A DNA stretch of 62,507 bases from Anaerolineales bacterium. Lineage in GTDB: Bacteria > Chloroflexota > Anaerolineae > Anaerolineales > RBG-16-64-43. A program made the position numbers and the translations under genes. Position 1 is the stretch's first letter; each line of letters opens with the position of its first letter. The stretch is taken from positions 1 through 62,507 of the forward strand of contig JAFGCU010000094.1 in NCBI GenBank assembly GCA_016932475.1, given 5' to 3'. Of the stretch, positions 3,395 to 53,736 are shown one piece after another. The notes beneath the pieces are model-generated. The model searched no databases. It was given only the letters and a program-made list of their open reading frames with translations, and was not told where the DNA came from.

Positions 3395-3889
3395 TTGCCT
3401 TGCCTTACCTTGCCTTTCCTTGCCATACCTTACCTCACCTAGCCGTACCAAACTTTGCCAGGTTTCTCCTTTCCTCACCGTGCAGTTGCAACCTGGCAAT
3501 GGAACAGAGGAAGGAGGTTAAATTAACACTACACCCGAAAAACGAGAAGTCAATAACCAACCGGGGAAAATGGCGGCCTTGCAATGTGAATTAATGTGTG
3601 CAAATTTATTGCACACTTGTAAGATACTTCACTCCCTGCGATATCCAGGACGTTCTGTCCGCCGGATGCGGATTCTACAGATTAATGGCTGCATAAAATG
3701 GACTACCTGGGTCGGGTAATCCTGTCATCCAAACCCGTACTGCGAAGCGGTATGCCATTTCAACCCGTCCCGCTCCCAATCCGGTTTCCTTATTTCAGCC
3801 TTGAAAATGCGGATAACGGGACGGGAATTCCCATGTATTGGGTTAAAACAGTCAGACTGGATCTTTTCCTCCAGTCTGATTCGCCGAGA
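3395..3889. other. Intergenic stretch with CCTTGCC/CCTTACC short repeats
   Basis: Positions 3395-3440 contain imperfect copies of CCTTGCCTTA and CCTTACCT. The rest has no supported gene. From 3822 it is the second copy of the duplicated tRNA flank. Confidence 0.5.
3853..3878 (-). terminator. Terminator of tRNA-Gly
   Basis: CAGACTGGA and TCCAGTCTG form a 9-bp stem with an eight-base loop. On the minus strand it lies just 3' of the tRNA and is followed by TGTTTTAA, as expected of an intrinsic terminator. Confidence 0.6.
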
Positions 3890-3960
3890 GCGGGTGACGG
3901 GATTCGGACCCGCGAATGCTTGCTTGGGAAGCAAGTGCCTTACCACTTGGCTACACCCGC
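3890..3960 (-). tRNA. tRNA-Gly, anticodon CCC
   Basis: This is a 71-base cloverleaf on the minus strand. The acceptor stem GCGGGTG/CACCCGC pairs fully. The anticodon stem is CTTGC/GCAAG around loop TTCCCAA, giving anticodon CCC. The T-arm is GCGGG-TCCGAAT-CCCGT. CCA is not encoded. A decayed second copy lies 866 bases to the left. Confidence 0.95.
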
Positions 3961-12376: not shown

Positions 12377-13930
12377 ATGCGTTCGCGTCTGCCCGTCATC
12401 GGAATATCCCTCGCCGTCGCGCTGCTCACCCTGATCCCCTACGGGCTTGTGTATGCGTCCGCCGGCGAATACCGCTTCACCGGTTTTCTTTTCAATCCGT
12501 ACGACGCCGCCTCGTACCTGGCGAAAATGCGCCAGGGATATGAAGGGCAAATTCTGTATTCGCTGGCCTTCACCGAAGCCCCCGGTCCGGGCGCCCTGTT
12601 TTTCACGTACTATATTCTGCTTGGGCATTTGGCCCGCCTGCTGCATTTCCCCCTGATCGTCATATGGCACATCGCCCGCATCCTCGGCGGGGCGTTCTTC
12701 CTGACCGCCGCTTGGGAATTCTTTGGCCGGATCGGGCTTTCCACCCGCGGCCGCCGCATCGCCTGGATCATCCTCCTGCTCGGATCGGGATTCGGATTCC
12801 TGGCTGTTCCTTTGGGAGCGTTCACGGCCGACCTTTGGGTGGCCGAATATATCCCCTTCCTCGGACTGCTTACCAGCGCGCATTTCCCGCTCGCAAGCGG
12901 GCTGATCCTGCTGCTGGCCGTCCGGATCGCGCTGCTCGCCTCCCGGCCGACGGCATTGTCCCTGGCGGCGGCGTTCGTGCTTGGAACCGCGCTCGCCGCG
13001 ATCCAACCGTTCGGTTTTCTGCCCCTCGGGATGGCGCTGGCGGCTTGGATGGCTTGGATGCGGGTCGCCCGCGGCCGTTTTCCGGAGGGCGCTCTCCAAC
13101 ACCTGGCGGCCGCGGGTTTTGGATTCCTGCCATGGGCTGTTTACGATTTTTGGGTCACCCGGAACCTGCCCAAATTTGCGATGTGGTTCACGCAGAACCA
13201 AACTCCCACGCCGCCGGTCTGGGACGTGGCGCTTTCCATGGGCCTGCCCGGAGTAATCGTTTGCGTATCCTTCATCCGCTGGATTTTTATCCGCGCTCCC
13301 ATGCGGGAAAAACTCACGGCCGTCCGCAGCGAAAGTCTCCTGGCGGCTTTGTGGCTCGCCATCAATCTCGCGCTGCTGTATGCGCCCATCCCGCTGCAGC
13401 GCCGGCTGATGCTCGGGATGTGGATCCCGCTGGCCGCGCTGGCCGCGCCGAAACTGGAGAGCCTGCTGTTCGGCCCCGCCCTCCGGCCCCGGCATGCGGT
13501 GTACACCGCGATCTCCTTGGGCGCCACCAATCTGGTTTTCCTGGCCGCCGTCGGATTCAACGCCTTGGGCCGTAATCCGCTGCTCTTCCTGAGCCCGGAT
13601 GCGGCAGCCGCCGTCGACTGGCTGAACGCGAACGCGCGCGGATCGGTCGTCCTGGCTTCGCCGGAGTACAGCGCCTGGCTGCCGGGAATGGCCGGCGCCC
13701 GAGTCGTGTACGGGCACGGCATGGAAACGCCGGATGCCGGCCGGGCGTTGGCGGATGTGGAAACATTCTTCGCCTCAGTGGATGAAGAGCTTCGGGCGCG
13801 GATCCTCAGCGACCGCCAAGTGGATTTGGTGCTCTGTTCGACGGATCAGGCCGGTTGTCCATCCCCTGAGGGCGGACCGCTGGTGGAAGTTTTTTCATCG
13901 GGAAATATAAGCATATTTGCAGTTCGGTAA
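12377..13930 (+). CDS. Polytopic membrane protein, paralogue of the 49793 product
   Basis: This 517-residue protein has about eleven hydrophobic segments, then a soluble C-terminal part (about residues 410-517). It shares with the protein at 49793-51367 the order GEYRFTGFLFNPYDAASYLA (there GEWRFSGFLFGVEDGNSYIA), MRQG, a Gly-rich GSGFGF loop, and an AAVDWLNANA region followed by a GHGMET segment. The family looks like GT-C-type glycosyltransferases or related lipid-linked sugar enzymes, but I see no motif that proves this. The start at 12377 follows GGGAGG; an upstream ATG at 12326 overlaps the preceding gene. Confidence 0.7.
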   Translation: MRSRLPVIGISLAVALLTLIPYGLVYASAGEYRFTGFLFNPYDAASYLAKMRQGYEGQILYSLAFTEAPGPGALFFTYYILLGHLARLLHFPLIVIWHIARILGGAFFLTAAWEFFGRIGLSTRGRRIAWIILLLGSGFGFLAVPLGAFTADLWVAEYIPFLGLLTSAHFPLASGLILLLAVRIALLASRPTALSLAAAFVLGTALAAIQPFGFLPLGMALAAWMAWMRVARGRFPEGALQHLAAAGFGFLPWAVYDFWVTRNLPKFAMWFTQNQTPTPPVWDVALSMGLPGVIVCVSFIRWIFIRAPMREKLTAVRSESLLAALWLAINLALLYAPIPLQRRLMLGMWIPLAALAAPKLESLLFGPALRPRHAVYTAISLGATNLVFLAAVGFNALGRNPLLFLSPDAAAAVDWLNANARGSVVLASPEYSAWLPGMAGARVVYGHGMETPDAGRALADVETFFASVDEELRARILSDRQVDLVLCSTDQAGCPSPEGGPLVEVFSSGNISIFAVR

Positions 13931-15959: not shown

Positions 15960-15973
15960 CCTTGCCTCCTACC

Positions 15974-15994
15974 CCCTCCCCGCTTTGGGGAGGG
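15974..15994. repeat. Class D palindrome (CCCTCCCC/GGGGAGGG)
   Basis: An 8-bp stem with loop GCTTT lies between the permease and HlyD genes. It belongs to the CCCCTCTCCC-type palindromes also found at 36811-36840 and 52624-52655. It may tune transcript stability within the operon. Confidence 0.7.
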
Positions 15995-16034
15995 CCGGGG
16001 AGGGGTTTACATGTCAGTCGAAAGAGGTGAAACC

Positions 16035-24235: not shown

Positions 24236-24388
24236 AAGAAAACACCCCTTCCGGTTGAGAAGGGGTGAATGGGAAAGACATCACTTGGCCTCTCATCTTC
24301 CAGAAACATCTGCCGGAATTGGCACCTTGGTTTTCGCCAGGTTGCCGAGGCTTCATCGGGCCGGGCCCTCCGCCTCTCTGGATAAGAG
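24236..24388 (-). promoter_or_regulatory. SAM-I (S-box) riboswitch with expression-platform terminator
   Basis: On the minus strand, 24388 to 24290 reads as an S-box. CTCTTATCCAGAG opens P1/P2, GGCCCGATGAAGCC and CGGCAACC form the conserved core, AAGGTGCCAATTCC follows, and GATGAGAG closes P1. Downstream, CACCCCTT/AAGGGGTG (24243-24267) is a terminator stem followed by TTTTCTT. High S-adenosylmethionine should favour termination before metA. P1 position and motif order fit the class well. Confidence 0.95.
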
Positions 24389-36684: not shown

Positions 36685-37120
36685 CGTGCAAAGAATACTC
36701 TTTTTGGGGTATCTGCTCAGCTTTTGCTGTCCTAACCCCCACACCCCGCCTTCACCTCGAAGAACACCGAGGTTCAGGCACCCTCCCCTCGCTTTGCTCG
36801 AGGACAGGCTCTCCCCCTTCCCCGTAAGGGGAAGGGGGAGAGGGGTTGGGGGAGAGGAGGTTAGGACAGTGTATCTTCGGAAGCTTGAGCAATTACTTTT
36901 CAGGATCGTTTGAGATTACCGATTCCGAAGGACCATCGCAGTTAGGCGATAAAGAATAGCCGCAAAGAGCACAAAGAAGTTAATCGAACGAAAGGTATTT
37001 TTCTTCTATGTGATCTTTGTGCTTTTTGTGGCTATTATTCTCCTGCATTTTTTCCGTCCTATTGAGACCAATTCATTTTCCTTGTATGGTAATTCCCCGG
37101 TGCCCGCGACTTCCCGGCTG
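36685..37120. other. Repeat-rich intergenic region upstream of ftsY
   Basis: It holds a long class D region (about 36730-36865) with a 13-bp palindrome CTCCCCCTTCCCC/GGGGAAGGGGGAG at 36811-36840. A class C inverted repeat lies at 36955-37036 (AATAGCCGCAAAGAGCACAAAG and CTTTGTGCTTTTTGTGGCTATT). No gene is supported. Confidence 0.7.
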
Positions 37121-49792: not shown

Positions 49793-51367
49793 TCATTCCA
49801 TCACCTTCCATACTTCCCATCCATCCTCGCGGTAGACGAGCTCGCACCCGGGGAAGCCCGCGCCGGGGCGGGCTTGCTCCCCGGGACCCGCCAGGATGTA
49901 CTCCGCGCCGCTTTGCGCAAGCGCGCCCAGCCGGTCGTCATCCGACCTTTTCCCGTCCATGATCGTATCCACCAGAACGAGTTTTTCCGGATTGGACAGC
50001 GTCTCGGGTCCATGGCCGATAAACGCGGTCAGCCCGGTCCAGGCCGGCAGGGCATTTCCCGTGTCGTACCCGCTGAGGACGACCGCGCCCGGTTCGGCAT
50101 TCGCATCCAGCCAAAGCAGGGCGCGGACCCCGGCCTGCGGCAGAAAGGCCGGCGCGGCGGGCTTAACCGCCGTCGTGCACGCCCAACCCCAGAACAAGGC
50201 GGCGGCCGGGAGCAGCAATCCGGTCGCGAGGATGAACGCCGGCCGCCGGATTCGATCCTCGGTTTTTCTTTCGACCAGCAGCAGCGCCAGGACGATCAGC
50301 GCCATCCAGAAACCTTCGGAGAGGCGGCGCTGGATCGAGACCGGCAGATACACAAGCACCGGAATGATGATCATCCACGCGACGGGCAGCAGCCAGCGTT
50401 CGTTTTCGCGCCGCGTCAGCCACGCCCCCGCCAGCGCCGGGAGGAGAAGAACGCTGTATGAAATTATATAATCCCAGACCGGCGGCGCCGGCAGTGTGTT
50501 CTGGGCGGCCCATTGCCGCAGCACCGGATCCAGCGAAAACGATGCTGCGGAATACAGCAACAGCGGAACCGTAAAAGCGGCGGCGACGAGCGCGCGGACC
50601 AGGGAAGCCCGCAGGGAAACCGGCGCCGGCTCGCGGCGAACACGGGTCCGGACGAACCACAATCCGAGGAACGCGGCGATCACCGCCCCGCCGACCACGA
50701 GCATGAGCGGCTGGAAAAGCCAGCCGAGCGCAAGCGCGAGCCCGATCTTAACTCCCGACCGGCCCGGTTTCTCCCCCGCGTCCGGCGAGATCATCCATGC
50801 CAGGCTAAGCAGCAGCAGCGCGCGGGCCGCGGCCAAATGCGGAAGTCCCAACAGAGACAGGAACCCGAACGCTTCGGGGGATGTGAATTCGAGCGGGTAC
50901 GCCCCTTTGGCGAGCAGGATCCAGCCGAACCCTCCCCCGAAGGCGGCCGCGACAAGCCCCCAGCGCCGGAGCGGAACACTTTCGAAGAAAGCCGCCAGGA
51001 AGCGGTAGCTCGCCATGAGCATCGCGATCCCGGCCGCGATCCGCGCCAGGTGAAAAAGCGCAACAAGCTGTTCGTGCATCGCCGCGCCGCCGGCCAGCTT
51101 TCCCAGCAGCAGGAACGGCAGGTAGAGCAGCGCGCCGTTCTGCGGTTCGGTCGTGTACGGAATGCGGAACAGCCATGCGCCGTCCGCGCCCTGGCGCATA
51201 TCGGCGATGTAGGAGTTGCCATCCTCCACGCCGAATAGGAATCCGCTGAAGCGCCACTCCCCACCCTGCGCGGAGAAGGCCGCCAGATACGGGAGCGCGA
51301 GCAGCACCGATGCGGCAGCCGCGAAGATCAGAACCCAGCGCCATTCCGAACGGGTTACGCGTCCCAT
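49793..51367 (-). CDS. Polytopic membrane protein, paralogue of the 12377 product
   Basis: This is a 524-residue protein with about eleven membrane helices, then a soluble C-terminal part (about 420-524) with ALLWLDANAEPGAVVLSG and IGHGPETLSNPEKL. The same order of landmarks as in the 12377 protein (GEWRFSGFLFG, MRQG, GGGFGW, GHG) shows they are paralogues. A GT-C-type glycosyltransferase role is possible but unproven. It overlaps the end of the YfhO-like gene by 13 bases, with GGAG inside that gene, so the pair is cotranscribed. Confidence 0.72.
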   Translation of the reverse strand: MGRVTRSEWRWVLIFAAAASVLLALPYLAAFSAQGGEWRFSGFLFGVEDGNSYIADMRQGADGAWLFRIPYTTEPQNGALLYLPFLLLGKLAGGAAMHEQLVALFHLARIAAGIAMLMASYRFLAAFFESVPLRRWGLVAAAFGGGFGWILLAKGAYPLEFTSPEAFGFLSLLGLPHLAAARALLLLSLAWMISPDAGEKPGRSGVKIGLALALGWLFQPLMLVVGGAVIAAFLGLWFVRTRVRREPAPVSLRASLVRALVAAAFTVPLLLYSAASFSLDPVLRQWAAQNTLPAPPVWDYIISYSVLLLPALAGAWLTRRENERWLLPVAWMIIIPVLVYLPVSIQRRLSEGFWMALIVLALLLVERKTEDRIRRPAFILATGLLLPAAALFWGWACTTAVKPAAPAFLPQAGVRALLWLDANAEPGAVVLSGYDTGNALPAWTGLTAFIGHGPETLSNPEKLVLVDTIMDGKRSDDDRLGALAQSGAEYILAGPGEQARPGAGFPGCELVYREDGWEVWKVME

Positions 51368-53574
51368 CGTCTCAATACTCCATACGCCGCAAGCGCCAGC
51401 GCGGCTGCCGCCAGCCCGATTTGGAAAAGGATCGGATCATACGCCATTTCCACGGTGTGTGCGCCCGGTCCGATCGCCACTGCGCGCCACCAGCCGCCGA
51501 CGGCTGACATCTCGGCCGGTTTTCCATCCACCATCGCCCGCCAGGCCGGGTACCAGACTTCGGAAAGAACGACGATCCCGGGACCGGTTGCGGTCAGGCG
51601 GATTTGGTTCGGGCTCTCGAAATCGATGCGCGCCTCGCGGCCGCGAACCGAGGTATCCCAGGAATCGGGATCCTCCGCCACCCAAACGCGCGCGGAAAAG
51701 TGAAGGCTTTTGCATAAATAAATCCCGCCGATTTGTTCGCATCCGGCGAGCATCGCGCTCTGAATTGGGCAGGCCGACGCAATGTAACGAACATTCAGCA
51801 GCCCCAGCAACTGCAAATCGGGGAAAGCCTCCCGGTTGTCGGATTGCGGATTCCCCGTGGCAAACGCCGGAAGCGTCACGGAATAGCCGTCCAGCGGAAC
51901 GCGCGCCGCCCTGGAAACGGTCTCCGCCGTCGAAGCGAGAATCAGCGGGGCGACGCCATCGAGCGAACGCAAACCGTTTTGCACGGCGGCAAGCTGCGGA
52001 ATACTGGCCGAGGGGGAATACACGCGGTAGGCATCGGCATCCGCCGATATCATCCGCGCCACGGTGGCTGCGTCGGCGGAAACCGGATCGGCCGGATTCG
52101 GATCGATCATCCGCCCGTCCGCCACCGCCAAGTCGATCACCGCCAGGCAGAGCAGAGCGGCGTTGACCGGCGGGTTCCAGCGCCGCGAGAAGAATCCGAC
52201 GAAAAGGATCAACCCCAGCGCGCCCCACATCAGCGCATCCTGCCCCAACACCGCGGGAAGATCCATCGCAAGCGCGGTGGCGGCCAGGATCAACCCGCCC
52301 GCCGCCAGCGCAAAGGCCGCCTTCTTAAAAATCCCGCGCCCGTCCACCAGGGATTCGAGCCGCGTCAAACCGCGCGCGGCCAGCATCGCCAGCGCCAGGC
52401 CGGCGAGGAACATCCAGCGCGGAGGAACGCGCAGCAGGCCCGCGGCGGGAACCGCATCCAGAAGGTTCGATACTCCGGGAATATTGGATCCGAGCGAAAG
52501 GAAAATCGAGGCGAGAAGGAGGATGAACCAGAACCACCCCTCGCGCCCTCGCTCCCCCTCACCCTCATTCCCCAGCCCCTTCTTCCGGTATCCTTCCTCA
52601 CCCCCTACCCCCTCACCCCCCGACCCCCTCTCCCAAATCACTTTGGGAGAGGGGGAGAAAAGGAGCGAGGCGAACGCCAGCGCCAGAACGACCACGCCGG
52701 GATACACGACCCATTCAATCGAGCTTCCGATTCCCGCGAACAGCAATCCGAGGAGCGCGGAAAACGGAAGCGAAAGGACGGTGCCGTCCGCACCGGAAAG
52801 ATACGCGCGCGTGGATAGGGAGACGAACTGCCCCATTGGCAAGGCGAGGACGGCGGCGATCGCCGCGGCAAAGACCGCAAACACGGCGAAATGCTTGACC
52901 CAATTCATGAGCAACCGTCCGCGCGGCCGCGTCGGCATGCCGCTTCCACAGAAAATGGCGTACCCGGCGGCAGCCGCCGCGGAAGGGATCACCCAGCGTG
53001 GATCGATCAGGAAGATGATGCCCGCCATCACTCCAGCCAGCGCCCAGCGGCGGGTGCTTCCTTTGCATGCGGCTTGGCGCGCGGCGAAGAGCAGCCAGGG
53101 AGTCCAGGAGACAGCCAGGACAAGCGTCAGATGTCCGGCCGCCGCATGCGCGACCAGTTTCGGCAGTCCGCCGAAGGCTATCCCTGCCAGTAACGATGCC
53201 ACCTCGCCGGCGCCTTCCTCGCGCGCCAGAAAATACGCGCCGAATCCGGCAAACGCCAAATGCAGGAAAAAGAGGATGTTGAATGCCAGCGGCGCCGGAA
53301 GGATGAGGGCGAGCCACAGCGGAGGATAATACAATCCGGACAGCGGATCCGCCGCGAAGGGCGTCCCGCCCAAGGTATGCGGATTCCAAAGGGGAATTTC
53401 TCCGAATTGAGTGATGGATTGGCGGATGAACTCGGCGCTCGGCCAGTGCGCCACGACCAGGTCGGAATACTCCGCGCCGGGGGCGGAATGGACCGAGGCG
53501 GGATCTCCCAGGAACGGAGCCAGCCAGACCAGGGGGAGGAGGAGAAGCAGCCACAACAGGGAGGGACGCTTCAT
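51355..53574 (-). CDS. YfhO-like polytopic membrane protein carrying an in-frame repeat insertion
   Basis: This 739-residue protein is a relative of the 43089 product. It has an N-terminal helix, WPSAEFIRQSITQFGEIPLW and NPHTLGGTPFA near 70-95, about ten further helices, and a C-terminal beta domain ending in GAHTVEMAYDP and a last helix. Around residues 303-345 a charged Gly/Glu/Arg-rich loop (WERGSGGEGVGGEEG, GEGERGREG) interrupts two helices and coincides with a class D palindrome in the DNA. ATG at 53574 follows no strong ribosome-binding site; it is preferred because the first helix begins there. The downstream membrane-protein gene overlaps its stop. Confidence 0.82.
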   Translation of the reverse strand: MKRPSLLWLLLLLPLVWLAPFLGDPASVHSAPGAEYSDLVVAHWPSAEFIRQSITQFGEIPLWNPHTLGGTPFAADPLSGLYYPPLWLALILPAPLAFNILFFLHLAFAGFGAYFLAREEGAGEVASLLAGIAFGGLPKLVAHAAAGHLTLVLAVSWTPWLLFAARQAACKGSTRRWALAGVMAGIIFLIDPRWVIPSAAAAAGYAIFCGSGMPTRPRGRLLMNWVKHFAVFAVFAAAIAAVLALPMGQFVSLSTRAYLSGADGTVLSLPFSALLGLLFAGIGSSIEWVVYPGVVVLALAFASLLFSPSPKVIWERGSGGEGVGGEEGYRKKGLGNEGEGERGREGWFWFILLLASIFLSLGSNIPGVSNLLDAVPAAGLLRVPPRWMFLAGLALAMLAARGLTRLESLVDGRGIFKKAAFALAAGGLILAATALAMDLPAVLGQDALMWGALGLILFVGFFSRRWNPPVNAALLCLAVIDLAVADGRMIDPNPADPVSADAATVARMISADADAYRVYSPSASIPQLAAVQNGLRSLDGVAPLILASTAETVSRAARVPLDGYSVTLPAFATGNPQSDNREAFPDLQLLGLLNVRYIASACPIQSAMLAGCEQIGGIYLCKSLHFSARVWVAEDPDSWDTSVRGREARIDFESPNQIRLTATGPGIVVLSEVWYPAWRAMVDGKPAEMSAVGGWWRAVAIGPGAHTVEMAYDPILFQIGLAAAALALAAYGVLRRWDA
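52545..52665. repeat. Class D repeat inside a coding sequence
   Basis: CCCCCTCTCCCAAA (52624-52637) and TTTGGGAGAGGGGG (52642-52655) are exact 14-bp inverted copies with loop TCAC. They are embedded in a longer CCCCTCACCC-type low-complexity region that the YfhO-like gene reads through in frame. Confidence 0.85.
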
Positions 53575-53644
53575 TGAGAGATGAGTATACCCCGAGAGAA
53601 AGAGGTGGATTCCCCCTCCCCGCCGTTTTTTGCCGCGCATCTGA

Positions 53645-53662: not shown

Positions 53663-53736
53663 GGGCGGTTAGCTCAGTTGGTTAGAGCACACGGTTGACA
53701 TCCGTGAGGTCGTAGGTTCGAGCCCTATACCGCCCA
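53663..53736 (+). tRNA. tRNA-Val, anticodon GAC
   Basis: This is a 74-base cloverleaf. The acceptor stem is GGGCGGT/ACCGCCC, the D-arm GCTCAGTTGGTTAGAGC, the anticodon stem CACGG/CCGTG with loop TTGACAT (anticodon GAC), and the T-arm GTAGG-TTCGAGC-CCTAT. The discriminator base is A and CCA is not encoded. Confidence 0.96.

Follow-up and report, generated by a model that had tools for sequence, protein, structure and literature searches.

An in-frame palindromic loop in a YfhO-like membrane-protein gene of an Anaerolineales bacterium, and the association of its repeat family with DUF559 nuclease genes

The palindrome and its host gene

A 62,507-nucleotide stretch of DNA from an Anaerolineales bacterium of the Chloroflexota (assembly GCA_016932475.1, contig JAFGCU010000094.1, positions 1 to 62,507; hereafter the window) contains a gene for a YfhO-like membrane protein with a perfect palindrome inside its coding sequence. 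The inverted repeat CCCCCTCTCCCAAA / TTTGGGAGAGGGGG has 14-bp arms (52624-52637 and 52642-52655) separated by the 4-nt loop TCAC, which bears out the claim of a first-pass annotation of this DNA that a 14-bp perfect palindrome lies in a membrane-protein gene. The palindrome is matched once in the window at up to three mismatches and is absent from 100 dinucleotide-shuffled sequences, and its RNA fold on the gene strand has a z-score of -3.9. The same annotation had the palindrome read in frame as a Gly/Glu/Arg-rich loop, and this reading holds as well, as the 761-residue open reading frame (ORF) of the host gene runs uninterrupted across the insert and the palindrome is translated as SPSPKVIWERGSGGEGVGGEEGYRKKGLGNEGEGERGREG between two hydrophobic stretches. 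The match of the host protein to PF09586 (YfhO) is slightly below the Pfam cut-off (27.9 versus 28.5 bits), and the true start of the gene may be a downstream ATG.

Repeat-derived DNA goes beyond the palindrome itself. The insert extends from about 52538 to about 52672, encodes a Gly/Glu/Arg-rich loop of roughly 40 residues in the host protein, and includes a C-rich tail that reaches down to about 52538. Imperfect C-rich repeats are present within this tail, which also carries CCCTCACCC (52610-52618), a motif common to other copies of the focal repeat family. The focal copy has a single recognisable end. The limits of the insert are approximate, as the closest homologues are just 61-62% identical and too diverged for base-by-base alignment.

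Orthologues, to which the first-pass annotation had looked for a check on the capture, were sought in 201 genomes of the order, 133 of which gave a match, and 29 fetched homologues were aligned (30 loci, one being the window itself). The loop residues are missing in 27 of the 29, where the hydrophobic stretches are directly joined. Shorter loops, with codons and DNA unrelated to the repeat, are present in the two nearest homologues, one from the same genus and one from the same family; thus, the site was already variable in length, and the insert may be an addition or may have replaced an earlier loop. The pattern of presence and absence suggests that the repeat moved into the gene, and we consider it very likely that the focal loop is a repeat captured in frame. 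The broader proposal that such elements enter coding DNA and are tolerated there is supported both by the loop-free homologues and by in-frame copies in other genomes, with the movement itself deduced from these.

The repeat family within and beyond its own genome

The genome to which the window belongs is a 3.65-Mb assembly of 129 contigs. The exact focal core is found at two places in it, the focal site and contig C104, and a looser form, CCTCTCCC..GGGAGAGG, has 33 matches (two of them overlapping) versus one for a reversed-pattern control. When the insert was compared with this genome by BLAST, the best match beyond itself was 88% identical over 49 bp and fell in a palindrome array on C104; all BLAST matches besides the insert itself were partial, so the assembly yielded no further full-length copy. 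At approximately positions 13126-13512 of that contig (L206, G000:C104:11000-15500), palindromes of the focal type are repeated in tandem about every 169 bp.

Outside this genome, the exact core occurs in at least 117 stretches from Chloroflexota, Cyanobacteria, Armatimonadota and Gemmatimonadota, and the 26 outer bases of the focal palindrome recur exactly in other phyla. Within the window's own order it is present in just 2 of 301 genomes, the window's genome being one of them. Taking the 117 listed named loci together with locus L194 gives 89 distinct core copies. In 76 of these listed copies the stem has CCCTCACCC no more than 30 bp away, and 38 have another palindrome at a distance of up to 110 bp, while the tags GTAG/CTAC and CGTC/GACG are each found at the stem base of one. 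All 126 palindromes of the listed set are stop-free in all six frames, compared with 776 of 2000 random 32-mers from the window; the focal palindrome is open in five of six. In the Spirulina sp. CS-785/01 loci (among L080-L191), a palindrome of the focal type lies near many contig ends, and the repeat therefore probably fragments that assembly.

The first-pass annotation placed the focal palindrome in one class with two others, at 15974-15994 and 36811-36840, which it described as intergenic. Their intergenic location stands; the common class does not, since the sequences are different, and on that evidence both palindromes resemble the focal repeat in style and not in sequence. Positions 36809-36842 are the core of a 143-bp element (36727-36869) with perfect 11-bp ends CTGTCCTAACC..GGTTAGGACAG, and by sequence the majority of the genome's 33 looser palindromes belong to the family of this element. 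The palindrome at 15974 is short and of another sequence, with a z-score of -1.55; 14 of 200 shuffles fold as well, and it is not clearly better folded than shuffled sequence.

A genome-wide search for in-frame copies, likewise proposed by the annotation, yielded captures in other bacteria; in the own genome only the focal copy is clear. The own-genome check covered ORFs of at least 150 residues with 30 residues on both sides of the palindrome, and by this measure 1 of the 33 palindromes, the focal one, is clearly inside a gene. Six more fall within qualifying ORFs (seven ORFs, five of them with no Pfam match). In other bacteria the core is in frame between or inside Pfam domains in DapF (L142), MenD (L108) and a ParA/4Fe-4S ATPase (L156), an Eco57I-type methylase (L158) has several in-frame copies as judged by Pfam, and in AddB (L090) the core sits just before the Pfam-matched stretch. 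The idea that solved DapF and MenD homologues wholly lack the repeat-encoded residues was rejected, because relative to the best solved homologue the net gain at the repeat is just 11 gap positions in DapF and 17 in MenD; the repeat thus coincides with a variable stretch in these proteins. Apparent captures in YdjC (L196) and LigT (L030) were left uncounted, as the repeat precedes the best-matched stretch on its N-terminal side and is possibly not translated, and in G6PD (L082), DUF72 (L102) and SU10_adaptor (L140) the repeat lies upstream of the domain and is not a capture. Most of the scanned core-spanning ORFs from named organisms have no Pfam match and are probably spurious; some ORFs shorter than about 180 residues fell outside the scan.

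DUF559 genes flanked by palindromes

In loci L158 and L194, DUF559 is encoded close behind palindromes, and the products of the palindrome-bracketed genes match PF04480 (DUF559). DUF559 genes were surveyed in 21 genomes, then in 151 genomes of the order (65 matched at 1e-15) and in 20 named records (14 matched). With 80% coverage of the model required, 120 distinct copies were retained, 101 with both 250-bp flanks and 19 without; about 20 of the weakest matches of the 151-genome survey, several with stop codons, were left out. Perfect palindromes with arms of at least 9 bp are present on both flanks of 42 of the 101 genes, compared with 2 of 300 placements drawn at random in the window and the YfhO loci; one flank or both have such a palindrome in 78 of the 101, compared with 36 of the 300. 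Most of the flanking palindromes (111 of 139 with arms of at least 8 bp) are C-rich, and an 18-mer is common to the left and right flanks of the same gene in 27 of 101 cases versus 27 of 4000 mismatched pairs. The focal type of palindrome occurs beside DUF559 in L301, L194, L231 and L292. Each of the five own-genome DUF559 genes lies near C-rich palindromes, as judged by eye; the gene on contig C96 is flanked on one side by a complete unit closely like the 143-bp element of the window, and its opposite flank has that unit's palindrome with a CTGTCCTAACCCC end. Across 21 related genomes the number of palindromes correlates with the number of DUF559 genes (rho 0.62, p 0.003, uncorrected for kinship). 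We consider it highly likely that the association between DUF559 and the palindromes is real.

Many DUF559 copies are themselves part of longer reading frames. Stop-free frames of at least 300 residues within the stretch examined enclose 34 of the 120 copies, and all 34 were scanned with Pfam (L301 via L158, which is the same locus). Host domains are recognised on both sides of DUF559 in 15 (ValS in four, MetH in seven, UvrA in three and a Type ISP methylase in one); one-sided matches are to PIG-L, APH-like, XDH, DUF1156, MTHFR, OMP decarboxylase or Eco57I domains, and three copies (L300, L307 and L232) have no host match. Both flanks are available for 27 in-frame copies, and in 18 of these a palindrome with arms of at least 8 bp stands on each side, so the pattern does not stem from intergenic location alone. 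Pfam found no splicing or intein (Hint) domain in the DUF559-bearing frames at the E-value limits used, and inteins were set aside as an explanation for want of splicing domains.

The insertion in ValS has 142 residues (479-620) where solved Thermus thermophilus ValS leaves a 3-residue gap. Within one genus the site is filled in four genomes (G010, G129, G092 and G136) and empty in three (G176, G023 and G084). Of six filled pairs for which rates were computed, nuclease dS (synonymous divergence) could be estimated in three, and the ValS columns of G092 are partly misaligned (49% identity). For the pair G010-G129, dN (nonsynonymous divergence) is 0.165 and dS 1.9, near saturation, in the nuclease, and dN is 0.061 and dS 0.89 in ValS; these rates suggest that the embedded nuclease is under constraint.

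In eight genomes, from three families, DUF559 occupies apparently the same linker of MetH, which joins the pterin-binding domain to the B12-binding domain, and the palindrome-encoded linkers differ among them. At two of the UvrA loci (L353 and L355), long near-identical palindromes stand on both sides of DUF559. Coordinates and loci are collected in Table 1.

Table 1. Features of the window and loci with DUF559 inside MetH or UvrA
Feature	Position or loci	Strand	Basis or remark
Host gene, 761-residue YfhO-like membrane protein	51355..53640	-	open ORF; PF09586 27.9 bits, cut-off 28.5
Whole insert: C-rich tail, palindrome and short right flank	52538..52672		judged from repeat content
Perfect palindrome CCCCCTCTCCCAAA-TCAC-TTTGGGAGAGGGGG	52624..52655		sequence, shuffles, RNA folding
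CCCTCACCC motif	52610..52618	+	no more than 30 bp from the stem in 76 of 89 listed distinct core copies, other genomes
Intergenic 143-bp element like a miniature inverted-repeat transposable element (MITE); distinct though similar-looking family	36727..36869		sequence, position between two genes
Short intergenic C-rich palindrome, a different repeat	15960..16005		sequence, folding
DUF559 in MetH	L216, L265, L280, L322, L329, L330, L333, L340		one of eight cut by contig end
DUF559 in UvrA	L219, L350, L352, L353, L354, L355		three by UvrA domains, three contig-end-cut by ABC domains

How the repeat may move

What might carry such a palindrome into a membrane-protein gene? The C-rich palindromes, with CCCTCACCC beside CCCCCTCTCCCAA..TTGGGAGAGGGGG, are probably the ends, and probably also the targets, of a mobile unit that contains a small DUF559 nuclease, and the focal insert is probably a nuclease-less copy of this palindrome family. 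DUF559 has been assigned to the PD-(D/E)XK superfamily as a Vsr-like member (PMC12907096) and to the EDxHD homing family (PMC9403480), whose nucleases are described in PMC3943268. In the proposed mechanism this predicted Vsr/EDxHD-like nuclease would cut DNA at the palindrome or beside it, and the break would be repaired by copying in the palindrome, either alone or together with the nuclease gene. A solo palindrome might arise later, when the two bracketing palindromes recombine and the nuclease is lost. The focal copy would have entered a permissive loop between two membrane stretches of the YfhO-like protein, and it may have been tolerated because the palindrome is near stop-free in any frame, because its length keeps the frame, and because only a hydrophilic Gly/Glu/Arg loop is added. 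The palindromes would have two roles, as ends of the mobile unit and as peptide linkers that do no harm. We give about an even chance to DUF559 as the driver of the movement, and we give similar weight to the wider proposal that DUF559 and its palindromes form a mobile unit, driven by the nuclease and not by the REP-associated tyrosine transposases (RAYT) of repetitive extragenic palindromes (REPs), which inserts into linkers of core genes (ValS, MetH, UvrA and methylases) in frame and with neither intron nor intein. The association itself is what was observed; cutting, copying, their direction and the passage of the focal copy by this route belong to the proposal.

Several observations weigh against this explanation. 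The majority of the DUF559 genes (59 of 101) do not have arms of at least 9 bp on both sides, and none of the own-genome DUF559 copies is bracketed by the focal palindrome type. Where repeats are shared between the flanks of a gene, they are direct only in 13 of the 101 genes, inverted only in nine and both in five; with this mixture, a classical transposon with terminal inverted repeats does not fit. With a single palindrome and no recognisable nuclease, the focal insert is tied to DUF559 by resemblance, and its exact ends are unmapped. In the ValS tree the filled genomes do not form one clade, and G136 joins two empty genomes (support 0.855), so that a single gain in ValS is not established. 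Genes for Y1 transposases (the RAYT/IS200 type) have arms of at least 9 bp on at least one side in 11 of 24 cases versus 36 of 300 random placements, and a Y1/RAYT-like gene lies on the same stretch as a DUF559 copy in L194. Finally, kinship is uncorrected in the correlations across the 21 genomes, and the difference between those for DUF559 and Y1 is untested.

One alternative is that DUF559 is a homing-type nuclease that targets the palindromes, which themselves spread by other means; the nuclease gene would invade REPs that already reside in host genes, and the focal REP would be one not yet invaded. The brackets are direct as well as inverted, tandem palindromes surround the own-genome DUF559 copies, the same MetH linker is filled in eight genomes of three families, and the assignment of DUF559 to the EDxHD homing family (PMC9403480) would fit such a nuclease. 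On the other side, no host gene came to light in which relatives have the bare palindrome at a filled site, though no search for one was made. We regard this alternative as possible and, on balance, unlikely.

Another possibility is that the palindromes are ordinary REP or MITE elements moved in trans by Y1 transposases, with DUF559 as a passenger or a separate selfish gene in REP clusters. A link between REPs and RAYT is known elsewhere (PMC3733652), Y1 is present in 19 of the 21 genomes, including the own genome with one weak match (contig C90), and both the one-sided palindromes of Y1 genes and the RAYT-like ORF adjoining DUF559 in L194 are in its favor. Against it, arms of at least 9 bp are found on both flanks in just 1 of the 24 Y1 genes of the same genomes (24 of 29 loci were examined, the other five lacking sufficient length; a few lie near contig ends and have an assumed gene position), and by eye the Y1-flank palindromes are not C-rich. 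Palindrome counts follow DUF559 more clearly than Y1 (rho 0.33, p 0.15 for Y1, a difference from DUF559 that is untested), and the known REP tags GTAG and CGTC are each found in one of the 89 listed copies. The own-genome Y1 gene was rejected as the mover, as its match is weak and no palindrome of the C-rich kind was seen on the C90 stretch. On this evidence a Y1-driven origin is rather improbable. In L194 (G081:C60:1-2524), one stretch combines a DUF559 domain with a DUF1156 methylase frame, an array of tandem palindromes and a RAYT/Y1-like ORF.

Two further readings dispense with a mobile element. Local expansion of a slippage-prone, C-rich loop would suit a site of variable length, where the two nearest homologues also have loops and the tail contains imperfect C-rich repeats, but the outer 26 bases of the perfect palindrome are exact in other phyla and another contig has the 88% match over 49 bp, which makes such an expansion very improbable. 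An assembly artefact that joined the repeat into the host gene is more improbable still: the assembly is in 129 contigs and assemblies err at repeats, but the two halves of the gene align collinearly with one and the same set of homologues, no stop codon interrupts the frame, and a comparable insertion in ValS is found in four separate assemblies.

Palindromes read in frame within proteins were recognised first in Rickettsia and later among REPs of the GTAG and CGTC families, with RAYT transposases as the suspected movers. REPs of these two families, singly or as dimers, lie inside uvrA, recB, tRNA synthetase and other genes, so that in-frame REPs are known outside Rickettsia, and the Rickettsia palindromic elements (RPEs) RPE-4 and RPE-6 are CGTC REPs (PMC3733652); in-frame fusions of MITEs are reviewed in PMC10969869. 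The first-pass annotation likened the focal copy to RPEs. As to the way of working, the likeness stands, as in both cases palindromic repeats are in frame and tolerated in unrelated proteins (PMC10969869, PMC3733652). As a matter of membership it does not, since CGTC is missing beside the focal stem and present in 1 of 89 listed copies, the hosts are other, and palindromes related to the focal one bracket a nuclease gene. The family shares intragenic copies with the GTAG and CGTC REPs, and the caveat about N-terminal copies applies to both; it differs from them in that the tags are near absent (one in 89 listed copies each, with no GTAG at the focal stem) and in its association with DUF559 and not with RAYT.

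The bracketed genes also invite comparison with EDxHD or Vsr-like homing endonucleases of the I-Bth0305I family, which belong to the same nuclease family (PMC9403480) and spread selfishly into conserved genes. Unlike in those, no intron or intein domain was found around the in-frame copies examined, and the palindromes flank the nuclease as linkers and would be part of the host polypeptide if translated so. The EDxHD assignment covers the bracketed DUF559 genes; the focal insert itself is without a nuclease. MITEs with internal palindromes, such as the 143-bp element of the window, are likewise short, non-coding and dispersed and have inverted ends, whereas the focal copy has just one recognisable end. 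We found no report of DUF559 bracketed by palindromes or unspliced in host genes in the open-access literature, with subscription journals mostly outside the search.

The repeat family, which is present in several phyla, has copies inside conserved enzymes, and the counts associate it statistically with a nuclease gene that lies apparently unspliced in core genes. The link to DUF559 offers a testable candidate for the mover of such repeats and for the origin of protein loops and embedded domains. It is possible that some DUF559 "domain fusions" and predicted PSPNxGRGG or PLSQxWERG peptides are traces of mobile elements and not protein architecture.

Elsewhere in the window, Rfam at gathering thresholds gave three matches over the whole stretch and none at the insert. 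A SAM riboswitch (RF00162) scores above its gathering threshold at 24290-24388 on the reverse strand. Genes for tRNA are located at 53663-53736 on the forward strand and 3889-3960 on the reverse strand, the first of them adjoining the start of the host gene on its upstream side.

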